A DNA stretch of 64,000 nt, taken from NCBI GenBank assembly GCA_963377175.1, contig CAUJNA010000502.1:1208216-1272215 (forward strand), read 5' to 3'. This document shows, piece by piece, positions 1,507-10,995 of the stretch (positions are counted from its first letter, which is position 1; every line of letters begins with the position of its first letter). A program made the position numbers and the translations under genes. The DNA comes from Effrenium voratum. Taxonomy: Eukaryota > Sar > Dinophyceae > Suessiales > Symbiodiniaceae. Under the pieces are notes generated by a model. The model saw only the letters and a list, made by a program, of their open reading frames with translations. It did not search any database and was not told the DNA's origin.

Positions 1507-2183
1507 AAAAGTGCGACACCCTTGGCCCAGAGTGAAAATCGCCCCTGGGGCCAAACGGGAACCCAGGGGAAGTAAACGAAAAAACCTACGCCCAAGGAGC
1601 CGGAAGCCTAACCGAAACCAGGAACCAAATGCAACCACAGCCGGAGACCCCAGAAAGCCTCCAAACCCGACAGGCCTCTCCACTTCCTCGCAATTCTCCC
1701 CTTGAGATGCCACCACCAAGGGAAATTCACCTCTCCACTTGAGACGCCACTATGAAGGTAAATTCACCTTGGGCCCAGAAGGGTGAGTGATGTTTCAAAC
1801 CGAGGTAATCAGAACAGAACATGACCTTCCAACCCCAAAAAAAACAAAGCCCAAGAGATGACGTTTCAACCAAAAAGGAAGGTAGTGGGCCCCGTTCGCA
1901 AACTGGCAAACCCCGCCCTCGCAAACCTCCACATCTCATCTCTTCAGGAACTTTCAGGTGACCCCAAAAACCAAAAAGACGGGGTTTGGCAGCCAGGGGT
2001 TGTGAACCCCCGCAGAAGTACTGGTCACCCCCATAATGGATTCATTTCCCTTTCCAAACCAAAAAGAACAAGGGGGTATTAGTATATACCCAGCCACCCC
2101 CCAAAAAAAAAAAGTGACCCAGCCACTCCCCCTCCCAGTGGTGCCTCCCCCCACCCATCCCCTCCCCCCCACCACCTCCCTCC

Positions 2184-2322
2184 CCCAGTAACTAACCAAC
2201 CAACCAACCAATCACCCACCCACCCACCCACCAACCAAGCAACCAAGCAACCAAGCAACCAAGCAACCACCCACCCACCCACCCACCCACCCACCCACCA
2301 ACCAACCAACCAACCAGGGGAC
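2184..2322. repeat. Degenerate (ACCC)n/(AACC)n tract
   Basis: Alternating aacc, accc and aagc units next to the left edge of the viral element. No coding sense. Confidence 0.85.
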
Positions 2323-2397
2323 CAGCCCCAGTTAAATTAAAAAAAGAAACGCACGCAAATTAAAAAAAAATCGGATCCCCCCTCCCCTCCCCTAAAA

Positions 2398-3027
2398 ATA
2401 GCAAAGCATTTATTTATAGCACTCCTGCAACCCTTCTTTTAGAATATTACTGTCACGAAGATTTCATAAATATCCACCAAATATTATATAAGGTTAACAA
2501 GTTTTATTGCATATTAACACGATACAATTTTATGTCGAACAATGTCTGGTAAAAATGATATCAAGCTTCTTCAACTGTTTCATTTCTAAGTTTATTTCAT
2601 GCTTCTTTGTTTGGCTATGTGTTGTTTTAAAAAAATGCTCTTGTCTCATAGAACAATTACAAACATCACAACTAACAATTTTTAGAGACCTTACATTATT
2701 TTCAGCCAGTTTCTTTTTTCTATACTCCCCATCTTCTCTAAATCTTATTCTTTGTGCTTCATTATATCTGTCCTTATGCCTCGCTCTATGATTTACATTA
2801 TATTCATTACATTTTCTACAACATAACCTACCTTCTTCAAATTCATCTAAAGGTTTTGTCTTTCTACATTTATCGCAAAATTCAGTTTTTATTCTCTCCT
2901 ATAATCCTGAATATATAATGCCTACAATCCTTTGAGTGGTTTTCCTTTCGTCAATATTCCTTGAAACTAAAAACCCTTGAAATTTACAATATAAATCTTA
3001 CAGTTTAATTTTATTGTAAGGTTTATG
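2398..3027. repeat. Left terminal inverted repeat of the viral element
   Basis: Pairs, inverted, with about 8880-9471. Similarity runs from the outermost atag through tatagcactcc, the zinc-finger gene, the segment 'tagtttcaaggaatattga' and the inner 'cttacaataaaa'. The arms have diverged by substitutions and small indels, so the insertion is not recent. Confidence 0.85.
2530..2898 (-). CDS. Zinc-finger protein encoded in the left inverted repeat
   Basis: An open frame of about 122 codons without an ATG start: it opens after a TAG and ends at TAA. Near the N-terminus are paired cysteines, C-D-K-C and, 14 residues on, C-C-R-K-C. A basic middle follows (NVNHRARHKDRYNEAQRIRF). The C-terminus has C-D-V-C with two later histidines, like the C-terminal finger seen on the GIY-YIG gene in this element. 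An inverted, frameshifted copy lies at 8970-9305, so the gene is part of the terminal repeat. The function is unknown; nucleic-acid binding is inferred from the fingers. Either the start codon is lost or an upstream segment is missing. Confidence 0.65.
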   Translation of the reverse strand, partial: ERIKTEFCDKCRKTKPLDEFEEGRLCCRKCNEYNVNHRARHKDRYNEAQRIRFREDGEYRKKKLAENNVRSLKIVSCDVCNCSMRQEHFFKTTHSQTKKHEINLEMKQLKKLDIIFTRHCST

Positions 3028-3061
3028 CGGTTATTCCTTTTCGGGTTTTCTGGTGGCACCA

Positions 3062-3184
3062 CCTAACCTTGGGAGTCAAATCCCCTAACCTTGGGGGTCA
3101 AATCCCCTAACCTTAGGAGTCAAACCCCCTAACCTTGGGAGTCAAATCCCCTATCCTTGGGAGTCAAATCCCCAAACCTTGGGA
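3062..3184. repeat. 22-bp tandem repeat, about 5.5 units
   Basis: Unit cctaaccttgggagtcaaatcc, with single-base variants between units and no spacer. It lies just inside the left inverted repeat. It is not CRISPR-like because there are no unique spacers. Confidence 0.9.
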
Positions 3185-3260
3185 AACATTTCCCTCATAA
3201 ACTCATATTAATTATCAGAACAATTTAGAAAATATTCTTCCATAAATACCAATAACCAAA

Positions 3261-3516
3261 TCACCACCACTTTTTCTTAATATTTAAATCTCTATCTGAC
3301 TTTGTATATGAAAACATACAAGGAACACAACTAACCTTACCACTACCTTTTTTTATCTACTGTCAATTCATTCTTAAAATTCATAACGTGATTACATTTA
3401 TCACATTTTATAGCTTTACGTTCTCCCATTGATTTAACACTTTCTGTTGTTATAATTCTTTCTTGAACCTCTGGCATTGGTCTTTCTTTGCTTTTACTCT
3501 TTTTCTTTTTTGGCAT
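3261..3516 (-). pseudogene. Small viral zinc-ribbon protein, one frameshift
   Basis: Starts at ATG 3516 with MPKKKKSKSKERPMPEVQER, a lysine-rich N-terminus. It then shows C-D-K-C-N-H, and, only after a one-base shift in a run of seven A (about 3347-3353), C-V-P-C before the stop at 3261. The two CxxC pairs suggest a zinc ribbon. It lies on the same strand as the small gene at 3569-3769. It resembles small zinc-ribbon proteins of NCLDV/Polinton-like viruses in general shape; I cannot name a family. Confidence 0.5.
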
Positions 3517-3568
3517 TTATATTACATTTCGTATTAATTCTAACGAATAACAACATTTTTTAGTTTTA

Positions 3569-3769
3569 TTATCCGCTATTACAACTTCTATTCATATAAG
3601 TAATAAGATAAATTACTGCTTCATTTCTTTCATTTCTTTCATTCCTGTCTTTGCTAGTTTTTCTATTCCATCTATATTCTACAATATTCTGATGATGGTT
3701 TATATTTAGATGTTCAAATAAATGCTTGTCATCATAAGTTTTACCACAACTACAATGAACGATAGTCAT
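3569..3769 (-). CDS. Small C2H2-type zinc-finger protein
   Basis: 66 codons, intact. The N-terminus shows C-S-C-G-K-T-Y followed by H-L-F-E-H and H-H. The tail is rich in R, N and E (DRNERNERNE). The sequence 'gtcttactatttat' just upstream of the ATG resembles the AT-rich motif upstream of other genes of this element. The function is unknown; binding of zinc and nucleic acid is an inference. Confidence 0.5.
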   Translation of the reverse strand: MTIVHCSCGKTYDDKHLFEHLNINHHQNIVEYRWNRKTSKDRNERNERNEAVIYLITYMNRSCNSG

Positions 3770-3959
3770 ATAAATAGTAAGACAAAATAATCATAAATAT
3801 TTATCTAATCTGAGTATTTTAGCATAATCGGGCTCAGCAATGGGGTTTTCTTAGCACTGTATCAACCAAGTATCTTCAACGCTTATTGATTGAAGCAATG
3901 GAAAACCTGGTCGCGTTAGCACGCGAGCCTCTGGCGAGGCGTCCATTATGCTGTTGCAC

Positions 3960-4330
3960 CACTCATAACATAATGATGTTCCATTTAATATTGATTATAA
4001 CTATTTATTTAAATCGGCTATCTTTATTAAATGTCATTGCTGCTAGTTCATCAACATCTAGTATTATTATTACTGACTTCTTCTACAGCATGTATCATTT
4101 CGGTTTTTTCTATCGGGATAATCTTTCATAAAATTTGTTTACTTTCTGAAATTTTAGTTTACCATCACTTTCAACTGATGGTTTAGGTAAAATTATACTT
4201 CTGTTGTTGATGAAAGTCAATAACCTAACGTTGAACCAACACATTTGGTTAGTCCAAGGTATCCTGAGATCACCAAATATATATGTGCTACCTACATAAT
4301 ATACATCGCTTAGATCAATTTACGCTCTTT
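3960..4330 (-). pseudogene. AT-rich viral remnant without an intact frame
   Basis: On the minus strand, fragments such as KIIPIEKTEMIHAVEEV and DVDELAAMTFNKDSRFK can be read in different frames broken by stops. Base composition matches the viral element. It ends where the GC-rich patch at 4335 begins. No family recognised. Confidence 0.3.
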
Positions 4331-4334
4331 GCAT

Positions 4335-5137
4335 TACTATATGGTTACAGCCCGGAAAGCCCTTTGCACCTGCGCTCAAGACTGCAAGAAGCAGAACCCG
4401 GGCTCCAGGGGCGCCTGAAATGGCAGCACCGCCTCGCGCACTTGCTGAAGCTCCGCAACGGCATCCATGATCTGACCAGGTCGTGCGCGCACATGGCCGA
4501 CACGCAACAAGCCCGAACCTCAAACTGCTCCATGGTTGCCCAATGCTTCGGGAACATGCGCGCCATGGCAGCCTGGCTCCAAATCAGTATCAACATGATC
4601 AGAATTGCAATGGCGGGGCTTTTCATTGCGCGCCTTGTTGGCGTCGCGGGAGCACTCCCACGAGTACCACGACATGACACTGGTGTGATACGGGGAAACA
4701 AGAACGGCGATGAACACAGCTGAAAAAATAAAGGCTGGGCTGGGCAAGCGCCCCACCCCCCAAATATGTGGCAAGCGCTTGCTAACTGCTAATCTCTGCC
4801 AACGGGCTTCAGGCACCACATTGGCAAACCATGGCGAACCGCTGGGCGCAACTCGCAAGATTTGTGGGCCATTGTTTGTCTCCAGGTGCCCAATCCCCTC
4901 ACTAAAAGAGCCTGCATGCCTTGACTCTGCCCAGAAGTGTTTTGACAAGTTACGTGTTTGATCATGAATAAGGCTAGAATGCCCTGGCAACAGCCCTGAG
5001 AACTACGCTCCAGTCAATGGGGCGAAACCTGGCAATCTGCGGTAAGCATTTCATAAGTTTCCATACGCCCGTCGGGGTTTCCTTGGAAGAGCGGTTGGCG
5101 GACGCGGCCACACAAGCTACGCTTGAGCAGCTGTCGG
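4335..5137. other. GC-rich insertion inside the viral element, origin unknown
   Basis: Base composition jumps from strongly AT-rich to host-like at about 4335 and back at about 5137. Long but overlapping frames are open on both strands, none with a motif I recognise. A 3' stretch reads VSLEERLADAATQATLEQLS on the plus strand, which looks protein-like. It is either host DNA or a retroposed piece inserted into the provirus. Confidence 0.45.
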
Positions 5138-5183
5138 TGTGAATCTATTCTTACTTTATATGTAATTATGATATTACTTTATT

Positions 5184-5865
5184 ATGCCTGATGTAAAACC
5201 AAATGATGAAAGCAAATATGACTTTAAACAAAGTATGCACGAGGTTGTCCCTAAATTGCCGATGAGAGCGATGATTGTAGGCCCGTCAGGTTCTGGCAAT
5301 CAACTTTGCTTGTATCAATGATACTTGATATTTATAGAGGAGCGTTTGAAAGAGTTTATATCTGGTCGCCACCAGAAAATTTGGATAGTATGTGCTTGCC
5401 TGTTAAAAAATACATTAAAGAAAGTCTAAAAATAAAATAACTGAATATCAGAAAAACAAGGAATGAAGAAGTTATTTAATATATTAGTTATATTGGATGA
5501 TGTATCTGATAATCCAGCAGCAGCAAGCAAGAACAAATGGTTAATTTCTGTATTTGTAGAGGTCGTCATAGTGGAATATCAACGCGTGTCAGTCTTCAAA
5601 AATCATCAACCGTGCCACCAATTATTAGAGTAAATATAAGTCATTTGTTGTATTACAAAGTTAGAAACTTCAAAGACATTGAAATATTGCAAGATGAATT
5701 CTCAGCAATTGTTAGAAGCGATAGTTTACACGAAAGCAAGAAACTAATTTATAAAATATACCAGACCGCCACTGATGAACCACATTATTGTTGTTCCAAA
5801 TGTTTCATCTGCTACTCTAAATGCTGTGTTTGTTGTTCTGAATATTACATGAATTGTAGATAAAT
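5184..5865 (+). pseudogene. FtsK/HerA-type genome-packaging ATPase (A32-like), frameshifted
   Basis: Begins MPDVKPNDESKYDFKQ. A P-loop GPSGSG follows near residue 37, but a one-base loss at its lysine codon shifts the frame. In the next frame come LLVSMILDIYRGAFERVYIW, then the Walker B segment LVILDDVSDNPAA, and, after another shift, GRHSGISTRVSLQKSS, VNISHLLYYKVRN and TDEPHY. These are the ordered landmarks of the DNA-packaging ATPase of Polinton-like viruses, virophages and NCLDVs, which drives DNA into the capsid. At least three disruptions make it non-functional. It converges with the minus-strand structural gene (5744-6340), and the 3' ends overlap. 'cttactttatatg' upstream resembles motifs before other genes here. 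Confidence 0.8.
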
Positions 5866-6340
5866 TGGCTCCATCATAATAAGTTGATATTTCACTTGTT
5901 CCCAGTAATATATCTGTTCCAGTAGCTAATGAAATAGTATCTAAAAATGAAACCGTTGTTAAGTCAAATGATTGAATGGTACTAGTTGCTAAATAAGCAT
6001 TTGGAAATGCTAAACTAGTATGAAAGGATACTAATGTGCCACCATTAGGCGCTATATGAGTACTTCTTCATGCTCCACCAGTTTTAACATAAACATCATC
6101 AGCAAATAAATTTCCAATAACATCAGCAGTGGCAGTGTTAAAAGTCCATCCGGTAGAAATATCAACAGCTCCAACGTCCAACGATATTAGACTGAACGGC
6201 AGGGTCTCCACAAATGAACCTAATTGAGGAATTATCAGTATTTCTAATATCAAATGATAAAAAGCACTAACATTTCTGTATAATTCACAATTCGTACCAG
6301 TTGTTAATTTACCATCAGTAGCAATATTAACATTATCACA
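5744..6340 (-). pseudogene. Possible viral structural (capsid/fibre-like) protein, truncated
   Basis: Two blocks separated by a stop: one includes VETLPFSLISLDVGAVDIST and DDVYVKTGGA; the next reads APNGGTLVSFHTSLAFPNAY and TDILLGTSEIS and ends GGLVYFIN. The composition, small and beta-prone residues with T/S/G richness and few charges, is that of a virion structural protein. The 5' part is cut off by the GC-rich cDNA insertion at about 6343. I cannot assign it to the major or minor capsid family. The 3' end overlaps the convergent ATPase gene. Confidence 0.45.
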
Positions 6341-6342
6341 AA

Positions 6343-6706
6343 CAGTCTGGCCTGCGCCGCAGCGGCCTGGTCAATTTGCGGGTGGTACACCTCGAATGCC
6401 TGGCGTGCTCCGACATGCGGTACTGGGTCCGGACCATGTGCTCCCTATCCTGGCGAACAGCCTCATCGTCGGCCTTGGGCGGGAGCCGGGGCTCCGTCTT
6501 CGACACAAAGAAAACCAAGAGGCGCGGCTGCCCTCGAGCTCCATCTCCGCTAACGCAGTCTCCTCCTCCGAGAGGCGCTGATCCTCCACCAGCCCGAACG
6601 AAGTTGCCGAGGTAGAAGAAGCCATGGCAAGAGAGGGGGAGTGGGTACTGAGGCGATAGCTTTATCAAATCTCAGACCAGTTGGTCCGAGCTTGAGCCAA
6701 AATGGC
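6343..6706 (-). pseudogene. Retroposed host cDNA with spliced-leader relic, frameshifted
   Basis: A GC-rich island inside AT-rich viral DNA. On the minus strand it starts with the spliced-leader relic (6691-6706), then about 65 bases of leader, then ATG at 6625 and MASSTSATSFGLVEDQRLSE followed by EETALAEMELEGSRA. After that the best frame changes, continuing as SKTEPRLPPKADDEAVRQDR in the next frame, so the copy is broken. The island ends at about 6343 with no poly-A that I can see. Insertion of processed, leader-bearing mRNAs into the genome is known for dinoflagellates. The parent protein is not recognised. Confidence 0.7.
6691..6706 (-). other. Dinoflagellate spliced-leader relic
   Basis: The minus strand reads GCCATTTTGGCTCAAG, identical to the last 16 bases of the conserved dinoflagellate trans-spliced leader, and stands upstream of an ATG-initiated frame at the edge of a GC-rich island. 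An exact match of this length in the right place marks a reverse-transcribed mature mRNA. Confidence 0.85.
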
Positions 6707-6787
6707 ACATGCCATGTTGGTCAAGCATTCCTCACACAAGCCATGTTTCCACATGTTCCAACATTAGCAAAGAATAGGTGATATATT

Positions 6788-7444
6788 ATGGTAAATAGTG
6801 GTATGAATAGGTATGAAAATGGAAAGAGTTACAAAATAGTTGATAAAGGTTGTAACCTTTGTTATGTAGGTTCTACTTGTGAGAAATTAAGTAAAAGAAT
6901 GGAAAGGCATAGGGGCAGATTATAAAAAATATAATTACTTCATATATAATCTTAAAAATCAGTATGGAGTTGAAAATTGTAAGATAGAACTAATTGAAAA
7001 TTTCCCTTGTAAAAGTAAAGAAGAACTTTTAAAGCAGGAATGCATTTATATTCAGAATAGAGACTGTGTAAATCGCTGTGTGTCAGGAAGAACACCAAAA
7101 GTATGTAAAGACATGTATAATATTAATAACAAAGAAAAGATTAAGCAAGGGTTAAAGGAATGGTATGAAAGAACAAAAGAAGAAAGAAAAGACAAATACC
7201 AAGAATACAGAGATAATCATAAACCAGAAATGAAAGAATACTGTAAAGAATATAGAGATAAGAATAAAGAACAACTAAGGAAAAGTAAGAAAGAATATTA
7301 TTAAAGAGAAAACAACAACAATTCTAGCAAAACAAAAAACTAAAGTTTGTTGAATGTAAAGTATGTAATTGTATAATTAAGGGTAATCTAGCGAGACACA
7401 ATAGAACTACAAAACATATTAACAATTCTTTAAAAATGACTTAA
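6788..7444 (+). pseudogene. GIY-YIG endonuclease of giant-virus/PLV type, frameshifted
   Basis: ATG 6788 opens a frame with KSYKIVDKGCNLCYVGST (a GIY-YIG core variant) and SKRMERHRG. An extra base in a G run near 6914 shifts the frame, which then reads IELIENFPCKSKEELLKQE and CVNR, as in this nuclease family. A tail of repeated lysine/glutamate/tyrosine units follows (EYCKEYRDKNKEQLRKSKKE), and after another shift a small finger C-K-V-C...H...H. The order GIY-YIG, conserved E-N-F-P-C/E-E-L, KE-repeat tail and CxxC-H-H end is that of nucleases common in algal giant viruses and related elements. At least two frameshifts make it inactive. Confidence 0.8.
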
Positions 7445-7476
7445 AGGAATAATGACTTAATATATATTAGAGAAAA
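7430..7476 (+). promoter_or_regulatory. Repeated AT-rich motif upstream of a viral gene (copy 1)
   Basis: The block atgactta-a-ggaataa-gacttaatatat ends just before ATG 7477. Nearly the same block precedes ATG 8323. It is a candidate viral promoter. Confidence 0.5.
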
Positions 7477-8193
7477 ATGAGTGATACTGAAAGCGATGTA
7501 AGTTTATATAAAATCAATACCTATGAAGATTTAGACAAAGGAAAACAATCAGTATTAAGTAATTATATGTCTATTTCTGTAAGGAATGTGCTAAACAACT
7601 GTCAGACTACAAATGACATCCAAATCATTACCATTAGATATTATCAAAAACATCGACCAATTACAGGTGTGAAAAATGTGAAGAAATGATAATGATTTAT
7701 AAATCATAGAAACTGATATGACAACTTTGATTTACATAGTATCAAACTGGCATATTACTTTGATTTGAAGGGTGATGACAATGTACCAACACTGAATGAG
7801 TTGAGTTAAGACGAATACCAAAATTAGCTAATTTGAGCAACAGACATCACCAACTTTTACAAATTTTATATTGGAGCATTAAACAAGAGAATCAATGGAA
7901 ACATCGGAAAAGAAACACTATAAATTATTTATGGGAGATGAATGGAGAAAACATTGAACATGCCTATGATGAATTAAATAACTTGTTAAAAATATATATA
8001 TATAAACATTCATATTCTACATTATATTGATATAAATGAAGATGAACATCATAATCATCTTTGTGGAGAAAGCTTTGGAATTGAAATAGCAGATAAGTTA
8101 AATGAAGTGCTATTCAATGAAGACACTGATACTGAAAGTGAAACAGATGAACTAATAGTAACATTTCAAGAGATGGATGACTTTTACTTATAA
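7477..8193 (+). pseudogene. Acidic zinc-ribbon viral protein, multiply frameshifted
   Basis: Begins MSDTESDVSLYKINTYEDLD. Reading across frames it shows C-K-E-C-A-K and then Y-R-C-E-K-C-E-E, two CxxC pairs, followed by LAYYFDLKGDDNVPTLNEL, FYIGALNKRINGN, and an acidic end (LFNEDTDTESETDELIVT, then FQEMDDFYL) with a stop at 8191-8193. Whether this is one gene or two is unclear. The family is not recognised. Confidence 0.4.
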
Positions 8194-8278
8194 GCCATAA
8201 TTCTCACAACAACAAAATATAAATTGTAAGATTTATGGTTTAATGCCATAGAATTGAAATATGTATGCTTAAATGTTT

Positions 8279-8322
8279 GAAAATGACTTAAGGAAATAAG
8301 GACTTAATATATTCGTGAGAAA
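8279..8322 (+). promoter_or_regulatory. Repeated AT-rich motif upstream of a viral gene (copy 2)
   Basis: atgacttaaggaaataaggacttaatatatt, closely matching the block at 7430-7476 and placed at the same distance from an ATG (8323). Confidence 0.5.
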
Positions 8323-8658
8323 ATGAACGGTATTGAAATCAATAAGTAGATTAATAAGAAATGCTATGACTGTTGCCACTTCAAAAAAGAAAATGTGTAA
8401 CTATACAAATTGAATTTACCTAATGGAATAGTTAATAATATTATTGGTTATTCAATGGGTAAAGATGATGAATGTGATGATTGTCAGGAATGGAGAGATA
8501 ATCAAGAATCAATCAAGTGTTATTTGAACATTAACAGAAGATACAATGGACATGTTGAAGACGATAGTATAATAGTTCTTACTGTTTACAAAATCCCACC
8601 GTATGATTATGGTAATCATTTTCTTTATTGTAAATCAGTAAGAGAAAGTATGAAATGA
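8323..8658 (+). pseudogene. Small viral zinc-ribbon protein with internal stops
   Basis: MNGIEINK is followed by a stop, then C-Y-D-C-C-H-F, another stop, then NLPNGIVNNIIGYSMGKDDE, C-D-D-C and a stretch ending at the stop 8656-8658. The CxxC pairs suggest a zinc ribbon related in layout to the gene at 7477. It is broken by two stops. Confidence 0.4.
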
Positions 8659-8671
8659 TAGACCGCATATT

Positions 8672-8908
8672 ATGGATGTTGGTTTATCATCAAAAGGAGG
8701 GAGAAGTTTGAAAAAAACAAAAAAACTATTTATTGAAGGTAAAAAGTTTGATATTAAAAATACAGTTAGAGATACAAATGCTATTATTAAAATGATGTAT
8801 GAAAGAAGTAAGGAATATCGAACTTTATCTCGTCATCAAGTTTTGTTTTTTTTTTTTATCCTGAACTTAAGTTATAAAATATCCATAAAGCTTACAATAA
8901 AAAAATAA
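8672..8908 (+). CDS. Small basic hypothetical viral protein
   Basis: 78-codon frame starting MDVGLSSKGGRSLKKTKKLF, lysine-rich. The last third runs through a T run at 8846-8857 into the right inverted repeat, so the true end may be earlier. No family recognised. Confidence 0.3.
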   Translation: MDVGLSSKGGRSLKKTKKLFIEGKKFDIKNTVRDTNAIIKMMYERSKEYRTLSRHQVLFFFFILNLSYKISIKLTIKK

Positions 8909-9471
8909 TAATAATGTGTTGAACCTATTTTCAGTGATCTTAGTTTCAAGGAATATTGATTGTAGGATTGTGGGAGAAAATAAAACTGAATTTTGCGATA
9001 AATGTAGACAATATAAAACATTAGATGATTTTGAAGAAGGTAGATTATGTTGTAGAAAATGTAACGAATATAATGTAAATCATAGAGCAAAGCATAAAGA
9101 CAACTATAATGAAGCACAGAGAATAAGATTTAGAGAAGATGAGGAATATAGAAAAAAACAAACTGGCGGAAAATAATGTAAGGTCTCTAAAATCGTTAGT
9201 TGTGAAGTTTGTAACTCTACAATGACACAAACACGTTTTTATATACATAACAAAACAAAGAAGCATCAAATAAATTTAGAAATGAAACGGGCTGAGGAAA
9301 ACTAGTATTACTTTTTATTATTAAATACTTTACATAAAATTGTATAAGGTTAATATGTGATATAAACTATTAACCTTATATAATATGTTGATGGATATTT
9401 ATGAAATAGTTTGTAAATTATTATTTTAAAAAGAAGGGTTGAAGGAGTGCTATACATGTTTGTTTTACTAT
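8880..9471. repeat. Right terminal inverted repeat of the viral element
   Basis: Inverted partner of 2398-3027. It ends with aagaagggttgaaggagtgctata and a looser outer 17 bases. Host GC-rich DNA with the exon at 9545-9644 starts within 75 bases. Confidence 0.85.
8970..9305 (+). pseudogene. Zinc-finger protein in the right inverted repeat, frameshifted
   Basis: Same protein as at 2530-2898: EFCDKCRQYKTLDDFEEGRL, C-C-R-K-C and NVNHRAKHKDNYNEAQRIRF. An extra base in an A run near 9160 shifts the frame to a stop at 9176. A compensating loss near 9193 restores it for S-C-E-V-C-N and H-N-K-T-K-K-H, with a stop at 9303-9305. The left copy is open over the same stretch. Confidence 0.65.
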
Positions 9472-9544
9472 GTTTCTCCTTCGCCCCTCCCCCCAAATCC
9501 CCCCCCCCCTTCTCCCAGCCGCTTCCCCCCGCCTCCCCTCCCGC

Positions 9545-10449: not shown

Positions 10450-10995
10450 CTACTTCTGAGTGACACGCACATATCCCATGCGCAGCTTGCGCATGACCTC
10501 GTGATTCTCCAGCTCGGCCTTGGTCTCCAGCTTCTTCTGTTGGAGCACATCCAGACATGCGCCCTCCGCACTCTTCTGCTCCAAGGCTCCAATCTCGCGC
10601 AGCTTCTTCTCCAACTTCCGCGCCTCACACGACTCCTCCTCACTGAGGAACTTGACTCGCGGCCTTGCCTGCCATTCCTGCCATTCCTTCCATTCCTTCG
10701 ACGTCCACTTGGAATCCGTGTCGGCGCTTCCCAGTGAAGTCGCGCTCACAGTAGTCGCAGTAGCCGTGCTCACTGAAGCCACGCTCCGGGAATCCTCCCT
10801 CTCCCTCTCCCGCTTCTCCAACCTCGCCGTGAGTTGCTTCTCCTTTTCCTGCAGCCTTGGGCAGGCCGAGACCCGGTGACCCAGCTCCTTGCAGTACTTG
10901 CACTGCAGAATGAAGGACTCCTTGCACATGGCCGCAATGTGTCCGCTGCGCTTGCACCGGGTGCAAACACTTGCATTGGCTGTCACAGCTGCCAT
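10450..10995 (-). CDS. CCHC zinc-knuckle protein with charged coiled-coil region
   Basis: Intact single-exon frame of 181 codons from ATG 10995. Two C-x2-C-x4-H-x4-C knuckles lie near the N-terminus: CTRCKRSGHIAAMC (about residues 11-24) and CKYCKELGHRVSAC (about 32-45). A glutamate/lysine/arginine-rich, probably coiled-coil stretch follows (LQEKEKQLTARLEKRERERE), then a serine/threonine-rich linker, then a second charged helical part ending in RVTQK. Such knuckles bind single-stranded RNA or DNA; the exact role is unknown. It lies on the same strand as, and inside an intron of, the second ABC copy (between exons 9545-9644 and 11347-11505). The lack of introns in an intron-rich setting suggests a retrogene or a retroelement-derived gag-like gene. 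No spliced-leader relic is seen upstream of the ATG. Confidence 0.75.
   Translation of the reverse strand: MAAVTANASVCTRCKRSGHIAAMCKESFILQCKYCKELGHRVSACPRLQEKEKQLTARLEKREREREDSRSVASVSTATATTVSATSLGSADTDSKWTSKEWKEWQEWQARPRVKFLSEEESCEARKLEKKLREIGALEQKSAEGACLDVLQQKKLETKAELENHEVMRKLRMGYVRVTQK

Follow-up and report, generated by a model that had tools for sequence, protein, structure and literature searches.

Why should a virus carry a gene within the repeats that form its very ends? The question is raised by a locus in the genome of the dinoflagellate Effrenium voratum (assembly GCA_963377175.1), at positions 2394 to 9475 of a 64,000-nucleotide stretch of contig CAUJNA010000502.1, which we call the window. 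The element found there, spanning about 7.1 kb, is almost certainly a decayed Polinton-like provirus, and each of its terminal inverted repeats (TIRs) holds a copy of the same zinc-finger gene. It represents one old copy, with internal deletion, of a Polinton-like virus that has been highly amplified, and the oddity of gene-bearing ends recurs in a large virus family of the host genome. Little is settled, as far as we know, about the way in which integrating Polinton-like viruses mark and copy their ends and keep them equal. The many copies in this one genome fall into two sharply distinct repeat lengths and combine near-identical capsid candidates with several end types; they make up a natural experiment, in which end exchange, target choice, a candidate end-binding protein and its candidate site are each directly testable, and the outward-reading terminal zinc-finger gene may help explain how viruses keep, copy or recognise their ends. 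The explanation that we favour, with moderate confidence, is an amplified Polinton-like virus with mobile zinc-finger end cassettes.

The window element

An earlier note, made from the sequence alone, had described inverted ends of about 0.6 kb around an AT-rich 7.1-kb block, and the end-to-end alignment of the arms bears this out. Positions 2394-2908 match the reverse complement of 8964-9475 at 82% over 522 bp (E 4e-127), a further block of 79 bp aligns at 75%, and the best local score is 718, as against at most 222.5 in 200 shuffles. The left repeat can be followed from 2394 to 3045, its identity changing 512 bp from the end, and the right repeat from 8860 to 9475. The limits first proposed, 2398 and 9471, were nearly right, the true ends lying slightly outside them; the proposed size holds for the present span, but the element is an internal-deletion derivative, most of its paired relatives being about 21 kb long. 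Taken in 1-kb bins from 2001 to 9000, the content of guanine plus cytosine (GC) is 27-39% five times out of seven; the other two bins, which contain GC-rich inserts, reach 43-48%, and later in the window most bins are near 50%. In their outer 250 bp the arms are about 17% diverged, which exceeds the divergence in all 17 other elements compared and indicates an old insertion.

The same multi-cysteine gene does lie on both arms, as the note had claimed. The zinc-finger protein P0001 matches the right arm at 64% (8970-9302, plus strand) and the left arm at 66% (2889-2572, minus strand), and both copies are broken: the left copy, of P0001 type (2562-2889, minus strand), has lost its start codon, which reads ATA, with the frame open from there on and a frameshift besides, and the right copy (8970-9304, plus strand) begins with GTG and is frameshifted.

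Is the interior viral? The clearest witness is the remnant of an A32-type packaging ATPase (5184-5785, plus strand), with a stop at 5319, frameshifts and a missing 3' end. Of 50 candidates 49 match it, at identities up to 88% and many of them marked PF04665, the ATPase of a relative matches PF04665 at 1.5e-15, and by these sequence matches we regard the identification as certain. It abuts a fibre-like gene remnant (5786-6340, minus strand) at 5785/5786, about 2 kb being deleted there relative to the related locus L050; relatives of the fibre-like gene have a Peptidase_S74 domain near the C-terminus (PF13884, 1.5e-10 in one of them). The GIY-YIG nuclease that the note had named beside the ATPase is on weaker ground. 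Its remnant (6788-7444, plus strand) is frameshifted, with a basic stretch and a C-terminal C2H2 finger (7340-7444), and its family matches are weak. The assignment draws on homology to genes of relatives and on the N-terminal piece, which reaches 15.8 bits against PF01541 (E 0.017), the curated cut-off being 22.6. Among genes of the relatives, L051:5350-5934 has a GIY-YIG match above the cut-off (4.7e-7), L050:7311-7802 one below it (0.0015), and L052:614-1381, a relative of the window remnant, has no Pfam match at E 0.01.

The ends of the relatives

How general are gene-bearing ends? The host assembly comprises 1.156 Gb in 3699 contigs, and a first look gave 4210 candidates for the ATPase, 3654 for the capsid candidate discussed below and 2478 for P0001, of which 150, 92 and 150 were scored. 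All 150 scored matches to the 174-residue ATPase P0003 cover the query to within a residue, 148 of them without a stop; 149 of the 150 scored for P0001 are matches, and these make 144 genes after merging of pieces. Where neighbouring zinc-finger genes lie 5-45 kb apart, all 24 pairs are arranged minus-then-plus, facing outward, with a median span of 21.07 kb; the four remaining neighbour pairs comprise one under 5 kb (plus, plus) and three over 45 kb (plus, plus; minus, minus; minus, plus). Thus the note was right that the gene is duplicated at both termini, and the arrangement is found in other elements of the same genome. The terminal cassette is, very probably, a feature of the lineage. Two elements are short, the window element and C580, their genes spanning 6.7 and 7.3 kb; they have arms, nuclease and end-near genes in common, and since no convincing ATPase or fibre match was seen in C580, separate deletions are suggested. 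At G000:C1107:71232-74793 two zinc-finger genes with palindromes point the same way at a distance of 3.2 kb, which may reflect the tandem duplication of an end.

We compared 19 elements, found with a window arm or P0001 as query and so not a random sample. Of the 24 neighbour pairs, 16 contributed both arms (the window element, here C502, and C580, C3111, C162, C609, C20, C1846, C449, C3344, C1059, C3167, C52, C149, C2031, C734 and C40), and C2645, C1051 and C949 were added from a DNA search; the single arms C3054, C3690, C367, C890 and C758 are outside the 19. The arms fall into two length classes. In nine elements (C162, C2645, C1051, C949, C609, C20, C1846, C449 and C3344) identity changes 294-310 bp from the end, being 97.6-99.7% outside this point and 51-56% inside it. 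In the other ten (C502, C580, C3111, C1059, C3167, C52, C149, C2031, C734 and C40) the change comes at 512-800 bp, with 81.5-99.8% identity outside it.

Six of the nine with short repeats (C609, C20, C1846, C449, C162 and C3344) pair a P0001-type gene at one terminus with a P0066-type gene at the opposite one, on near-identical 300-bp tips. P0001 and P0066 share their terminal residues because the last codons of the genes fall within this tip. Both genes are full-length and without a stop in C162, C609 and C1846. We note that the P0001-type end lies on the contig left in all six mixed-end elements, which would happen by chance about once in 32.

The capsid candidate, a 458-residue gene upstream of the fibre gene, was chosen by position and look. 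All 92 scored copies are 95-100% identical to that of C149, and 87 are without a stop. Its carriers include C52, C149 and C3167, with P0065-type genes at both ends, C609, C20 and C3344, with P0001 plus P0066, and C949 and C1051, with P0066 at one end, the C1051 copy having a stop. Between the zinc-finger genes P0066 and P0065, synonymous divergence (dS) is 2.29 and nonsynonymous divergence (dN) 0.62. Near-identical capsid candidates thus stand on different end types, so that ends appear to have been exchanged between viruses, and we consider it probable, from these sequence comparisons, that end cassettes were traded among viruses of one capsid lineage. Close to one of its ends the C52 element also has a gene for a C5-cytosine DNA methylase (L051:762-1376, PF00145 6.6e-11).

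Beyond the zinc-finger gene lies a second feature, which marks many of the ends. At 9343-9380, about 40 bp past the right-hand gene copy, is a palindrome, TATAAGGTTAA...TTAACCTTATA, of which the left arm has a degenerate form. Most arms examined have, within their outer 250 bp, an inverted repeat with AAGGTTA...TAACCTT, as does one of 4000 shuffled arms. The strict pattern occurs genome-wide at 82 sites per strand, its backwards control nowhere. For 35 of 50 listed sites a zinc-finger match lies no more than 400 bp away and points its 3' end at the site, the median distance being 40 bp; this comparison took in 35 of the 149 zinc-finger matches, namely those on contigs with listed palindromes. 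Of 17 same-contig neighbours among the listed palindromes, 15 are 19-24 kb apart.

The libraries searched give the terminal protein no name. A single search found two relatives, and an alignment found 38 proteins at E 0.01, those two included. The 23 aligned terminal proteins have N-terminal cysteine pairs, a highly conserved charged helix (NEEQRxRYEEDEEYRKKK) and a C-terminal CxxC...HxxxxxH finger; Pfam gave these 23 members scattered weak matches, with a best E of 0.00049 and at most five members per family. An AlphaFold2 model, with a mean predicted local distance difference test score of 86.6 and a predicted template-modelling score of 0.47, suggests a two-domain zinc-binding protein. A Foldseek search with this model returned nothing under E 0.001 (best E 0.77); its partial matches include SBP DNA-binding domains and, at a probability of 0.94 across 39 columns, the U1-C finger (4pjo_L). 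From the motifs and the model matches we infer that the protein binds nucleic acid. Within zinc-finger types the ratio dN/dS is 0.18-0.39 in eight comparisons, some of which rest on one synonymous change.

Where do these viruses insert? A G4 or C4 run lies within 8 bp on both sides of 16 of the 19 elements, as against 612 of 7600 control 8-mers. With up to two terminal A/T allowed, 17 of the 19 have a flanking repeat of at least 5 bp, many of them in G/C runs; permuting the flank partners gave a mean of 4.4 and at most 11 in 2000 trials, and 68 of 342 mismatched flank pairs have such a repeat, as is partly expected in G/C tracts. The most specific repeats are TCCCCT (C1846), TTCCCCA (C449), TAGGGGAA (C949), CCCCT (C1051), CGGGGA (C2031) and, outside a G/C run, AACACA (C40). 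The window element and C580 have no exact flanking repeat; in the window, CTCCT adjoining the right end (9476-9480) is a possible target-site duplication, with CCCCT adjoining the left end (2389-2393) as its possible partner at one mismatch.

What explains the gene-bearing ends?

The explanation that we favour runs as follows. The relatives, of about 21 kb, have a zinc-finger gene that reads outward at one end or at both. Between the two ends the outermost 300 bp, with the 3' end of the gene in them, are near-identical in the less diverged copies, and a longer repeat of about 0.6-0.8 kb takes in the entire gene wherever the two ends share a type. So much is observed; the rest is proposed. During replication an end might be copied from terminus to terminus, or exchanged between co-resident viruses, so that tip, palindrome and zinc-finger gene would move as a unit. 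An rve-type integrase would insert the virus into G/C runs with duplications of 5-6 bp. In the most speculative step, the zinc-finger protein would bind the terminal palindrome, for recognition of the end in replication, packaging or integration. A role of the gene in end recognition is plausible, and a conserved palindrome beside the gene would fit it; that the protein is in fact the end binder we put forward tentatively, and the part in copy-number control that the note had suggested stays conjectural. Bolder still, and rather improbable, is the idea that the ends are exchangeable address cassettes, each a palindromic site together with the gene for the zinc-finger protein that reads it. If so, a virus would tag its own ends, mixed-end viruses would arise from termini traded in one cell, and whether genomes are replicated, packaged or tolerated together would depend on their end type and not on their capsid type.

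Several points weigh against this explanation, some of them given below with the rival that they serve. The rve integrase core in a gene of C609 (PF00665, 1.9e-6) scores 28.5 bits, below the cut-off of 32.6. No double-jelly-roll capsid was seen in the window, and the capsid candidate (P0088) has no match in Pfam, PHROGs or PDB sequences. A 1178-residue gene in C609, which has an endonuclease VII-like stretch (PHROG, 2.1e-4), contains the string YTDTDS, presumably a motif of family B polymerases; it has no polymerase profile match, and a PDB sequence search with it gave nothing convincing. The palindrome is missing from C40, C580, the left arm of the window element and the single arms C3690, C367 and C758. 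One gene is damaged in three of the mixed-end elements: the P0001-type gene has two stops in C449 and no start in C3344, and the P0066-type gene of C20 has no in-frame end. Two comparisons with P0002 give dN/dS of 0.58 and 1.34, and in two P0065 pairs, with three nonsynonymous and no synonymous changes, the ratio is undefined.

The main rival to end recognition is passive inclusion. In this case the TIRs have grown, or have been regenerated, to varied lengths and simply span whatever gene is outermost, the job of the protein being unrelated to the ends. We give this a substantial chance, somewhat short of even. Precedents exist in the parts of the literature seen: virophage elements that have been truncated possess TIRs all the same, and these 'must have regenerated' (PMC8547959), and the TIRs of a pacmanvirus hold two ORFans each (PMC11788076). 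Moreover C2645, C1051 and C949 have one complete or near-complete gene only, that of C2645 with one stop, and at the opposite end the shared tip or the end of the gene; two copies are therefore unnecessary for integration, a further point against the favoured explanation. What speaks against mere inclusion is that an outward-facing gene recurs at both ends of many elements and in several end types, and that in most listed cases the gene is followed, about 40 bp on, by a specific palindrome.

That distance is also what one would expect if the palindrome were the hairpin at the 3' end of the zinc-finger transcript, as in the hairpin rule described for mimiviruses in the portion of PMC4402537 consulted, and no end-recognition site at all. 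Do other genes of these viruses have such structures? Some internal genes of loci L049-L052 have AT-only inverted repeats just after the stop codon, which suggests hairpin transcript ends, and among 36 internal genes, some of them present twice, 10 are followed by an inverted repeat of 10 bp or more, as against 12 of 720 shuffles, in which letters were shuffled singly. Because internal genes have such repeats too, the transcript hairpin is a live alternative, which we hold to be a fair way below an even chance. It does not easily explain why the sequence is kept between P0001/P0066-type and P0065-type ends, whose outer 240 bp are only 57% alike (shuffles give a mean of 52% and a maximum of 55%). 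Nor does it account for the palindrome being usually doubled, about 76 bp apart, in P0001/P0066-type ends (it is single in P0065-type ends), or for its occurring only at ends within 260 kb of loci plus window, which partly overlap.

Might the window element be instead a chimera, its arms coming from two viruses joined by recombination? Here the evidence is in the codons. The differences between the two zinc-finger gene copies fall 5:10:21 on the three codon positions, and 17 of 36 are synonymous where 21% are expected (p 0.0007; 15 of 34 and p 0.0024 after realignment), a weak hint that the copies may have diverged under selection before insertion. Also, the arm on the ATPase side is of P0001 type, yet C1846, the relative compared there, carries P0066. 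Against this, both window arms are of one type, and coding and non-coding parts of the arms do not differ significantly in divergence (36 of 320 versus 43 of 271, p 0.11). There is no synonymous excess in C3111 (3 of 21), C40 (3 of 16), C3344 (13 of 56) or C609 (5 of 34), and a weak one in C734 (10 of 24, p 0.024); since the other elements differ in this way, the case for a split before insertion remains weak, and a chimera is unlikely.

Still less probable, though worth a thought, is that the gene is a regulator or a determinant of the superinfection type, such that end types with their own repressors would behave as immunity types. The zinc-finger paralogues differ from one another far more than do the capsid candidates of the elements that carry them, and the two-domain zinc-binding model with its U1-C-like finger could suit a regulator; that a single element can carry two zinc-finger types argues the other way. 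Finally, a linear element of the transpoviron kind, 7 kb long and with zinc-finger genes and long TIRs, would resemble the window element in size and zinc-finger content (PMC11788076, as far as seen). This reading can practically be dismissed, given the packaging ATPase and fibre genes, the integrated state, the lack of a helicase among the window pieces scanned, and the relatives, which measure about 21 kb and have candidates for an integrase and a capsid.

Remaining features and known systems

Just inside the left arm is a 22-bp tandem repeat of 5.6 copies (3062-3184). A small-gene remnant at 3273-3540 (minus strand), with short tblastx stretches to L050 and L053, corresponds to a gene that lies beside the ATPase in relatives. 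At 8275-8803 (plus strand) is the remnant of the gene that adjoins the P0001-type end in C609 (L049:146-673; 67% over 117 residues), and at 7477-7689 (plus strand) a small open reading frame. The latter is preceded by a 27-bp motif, TGACTTAAnGGAAnAAnGACTTAATAT, which it has in common with the gene at 8325: the motif lies at 7437-7463 and 8284-8310, directly before the two reading-frame starts, and these are the two matches with at most three mismatches, as against a mean of 0.00 in shuffles. We consider it a candidate viral promoter. No rve integrase was seen in the window copy. Scans of IMG/VR gave no relative for the terminal protein, the GIY-YIG piece, the fibre piece, the ATPase alignment A2, P0044 or A4, and a prokaryote genome scan with A4 gave none either; PDB sequence searches with the fibre piece, the GIY-YIG piece and A4 returned nothing convincing, and Rfam had no match at gathering scores. 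Outside the element, an open reading frame at 10450-10995 (minus strand) has two CCHC zinc-knuckle-like motifs in its translation and is perhaps a retrotransposon Gag relic.

Two GC-rich inserts interrupt the provirus. One, at 4340-5140 with limits drawn approximately and by eye, is host-like in composition and without viral matches. The other, about 6345-6780, holds a host retrogene fragment (6345-6706, minus strand, inner limit approximate), at the 5' end of which GCCATTTTGGCTCAAG, which we take to be the 3' part of the dinoflagellate spliced leader, matches exactly over 16 nt (6691-6706, minus strand). Simple arithmetic gives about 3e-5 chance matches for an exact 16-mer in 128 kb; with up to two mismatches allowed, 16 of 100 shuffles have a match, and the 21-nt form of the leader has none in the window with up to three mismatches. 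The exact match points to a dinoflagellate host, and together with the TIRs and the A32 ATPase it upholds the note's reading of an endogenous Polinton-like virus of a dinoflagellate. The 16-nt string stands in 21 papers that also use the words dinoflagellate and spliced leader, and retrogenes tagged with a leader relic are described in PMC12014239, so that a match at the 5' end of the insert is where one would expect it. With such a fragment inside the provirus, retroposition seems to have struck an already integrated virus.

How does the element compare with known systems, as described in the parts of the articles consulted? Of the hallmarks of Polinton-like viruses, long TIRs and an A32/FtsK-type packaging ATPase are present, and the target-site duplication of 5-6 bp is found in the relatives, the window element having it with one mismatch only. 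Maverick/Polinton and Polinton-like viruses are endogenous in protists as insertions of 15-30 kb with deviating GC, and thousands of capsid genes are reported from the dinoflagellate Polarella glacialis (PMC10120064, PMC12220804). The present family has in common with protist Polinton-like viruses the deviating GC, the TIRs, the packaging ATPase, a candidate rve-type integrase, a weakly supported GIY-YIG nuclease and, in some, short target duplications. It differs in its outward zinc-finger gene at both ends, its two TIR length classes, its different paralogues on near-identical tips and its insertion at G/C runs; full-text searches of papers outside subscription yielded none of these four in the parts seen, neither a zinc-finger gene in Polinton-like TIRs nor G/C-run targeting among them.

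Nearest in host is OmPLV of Oxyrrhis marina (PMC12721341), likewise of a dinoflagellate, low in GC, with an A32 ATPase, GIY-YIG, decayed copies and TIRs of 232-858 bp, like the arms here. OmPLV is described with a tyrosine recombinase and no target duplications, whereas the present family has an rve-type integrase match and duplications. A Pfam scan of 20 genes of the relatives, from parts of four elements, found no tyrosine recombinase, and on these two grounds we reject membership in the OmPLV type. The EMALE virophages of Cafeteria (PMC8547959), of 5.5-21.5 kb, are alike in their TIRs of 0.2-2.3 kb and in having truncated elements that end in TIRs; they differ in their virophage gene set, and the word 'zinc' occurs 0 times in the main text of that article. 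Genes within TIRs are known from a pacmanvirus, and zinc-finger proteins in TIR-bounded elements of 7 kb from transpovirons (both PMC11788076); these are a large virus and an episome, and the gene-bearing ends described here belong to a provirus of the integrase type.

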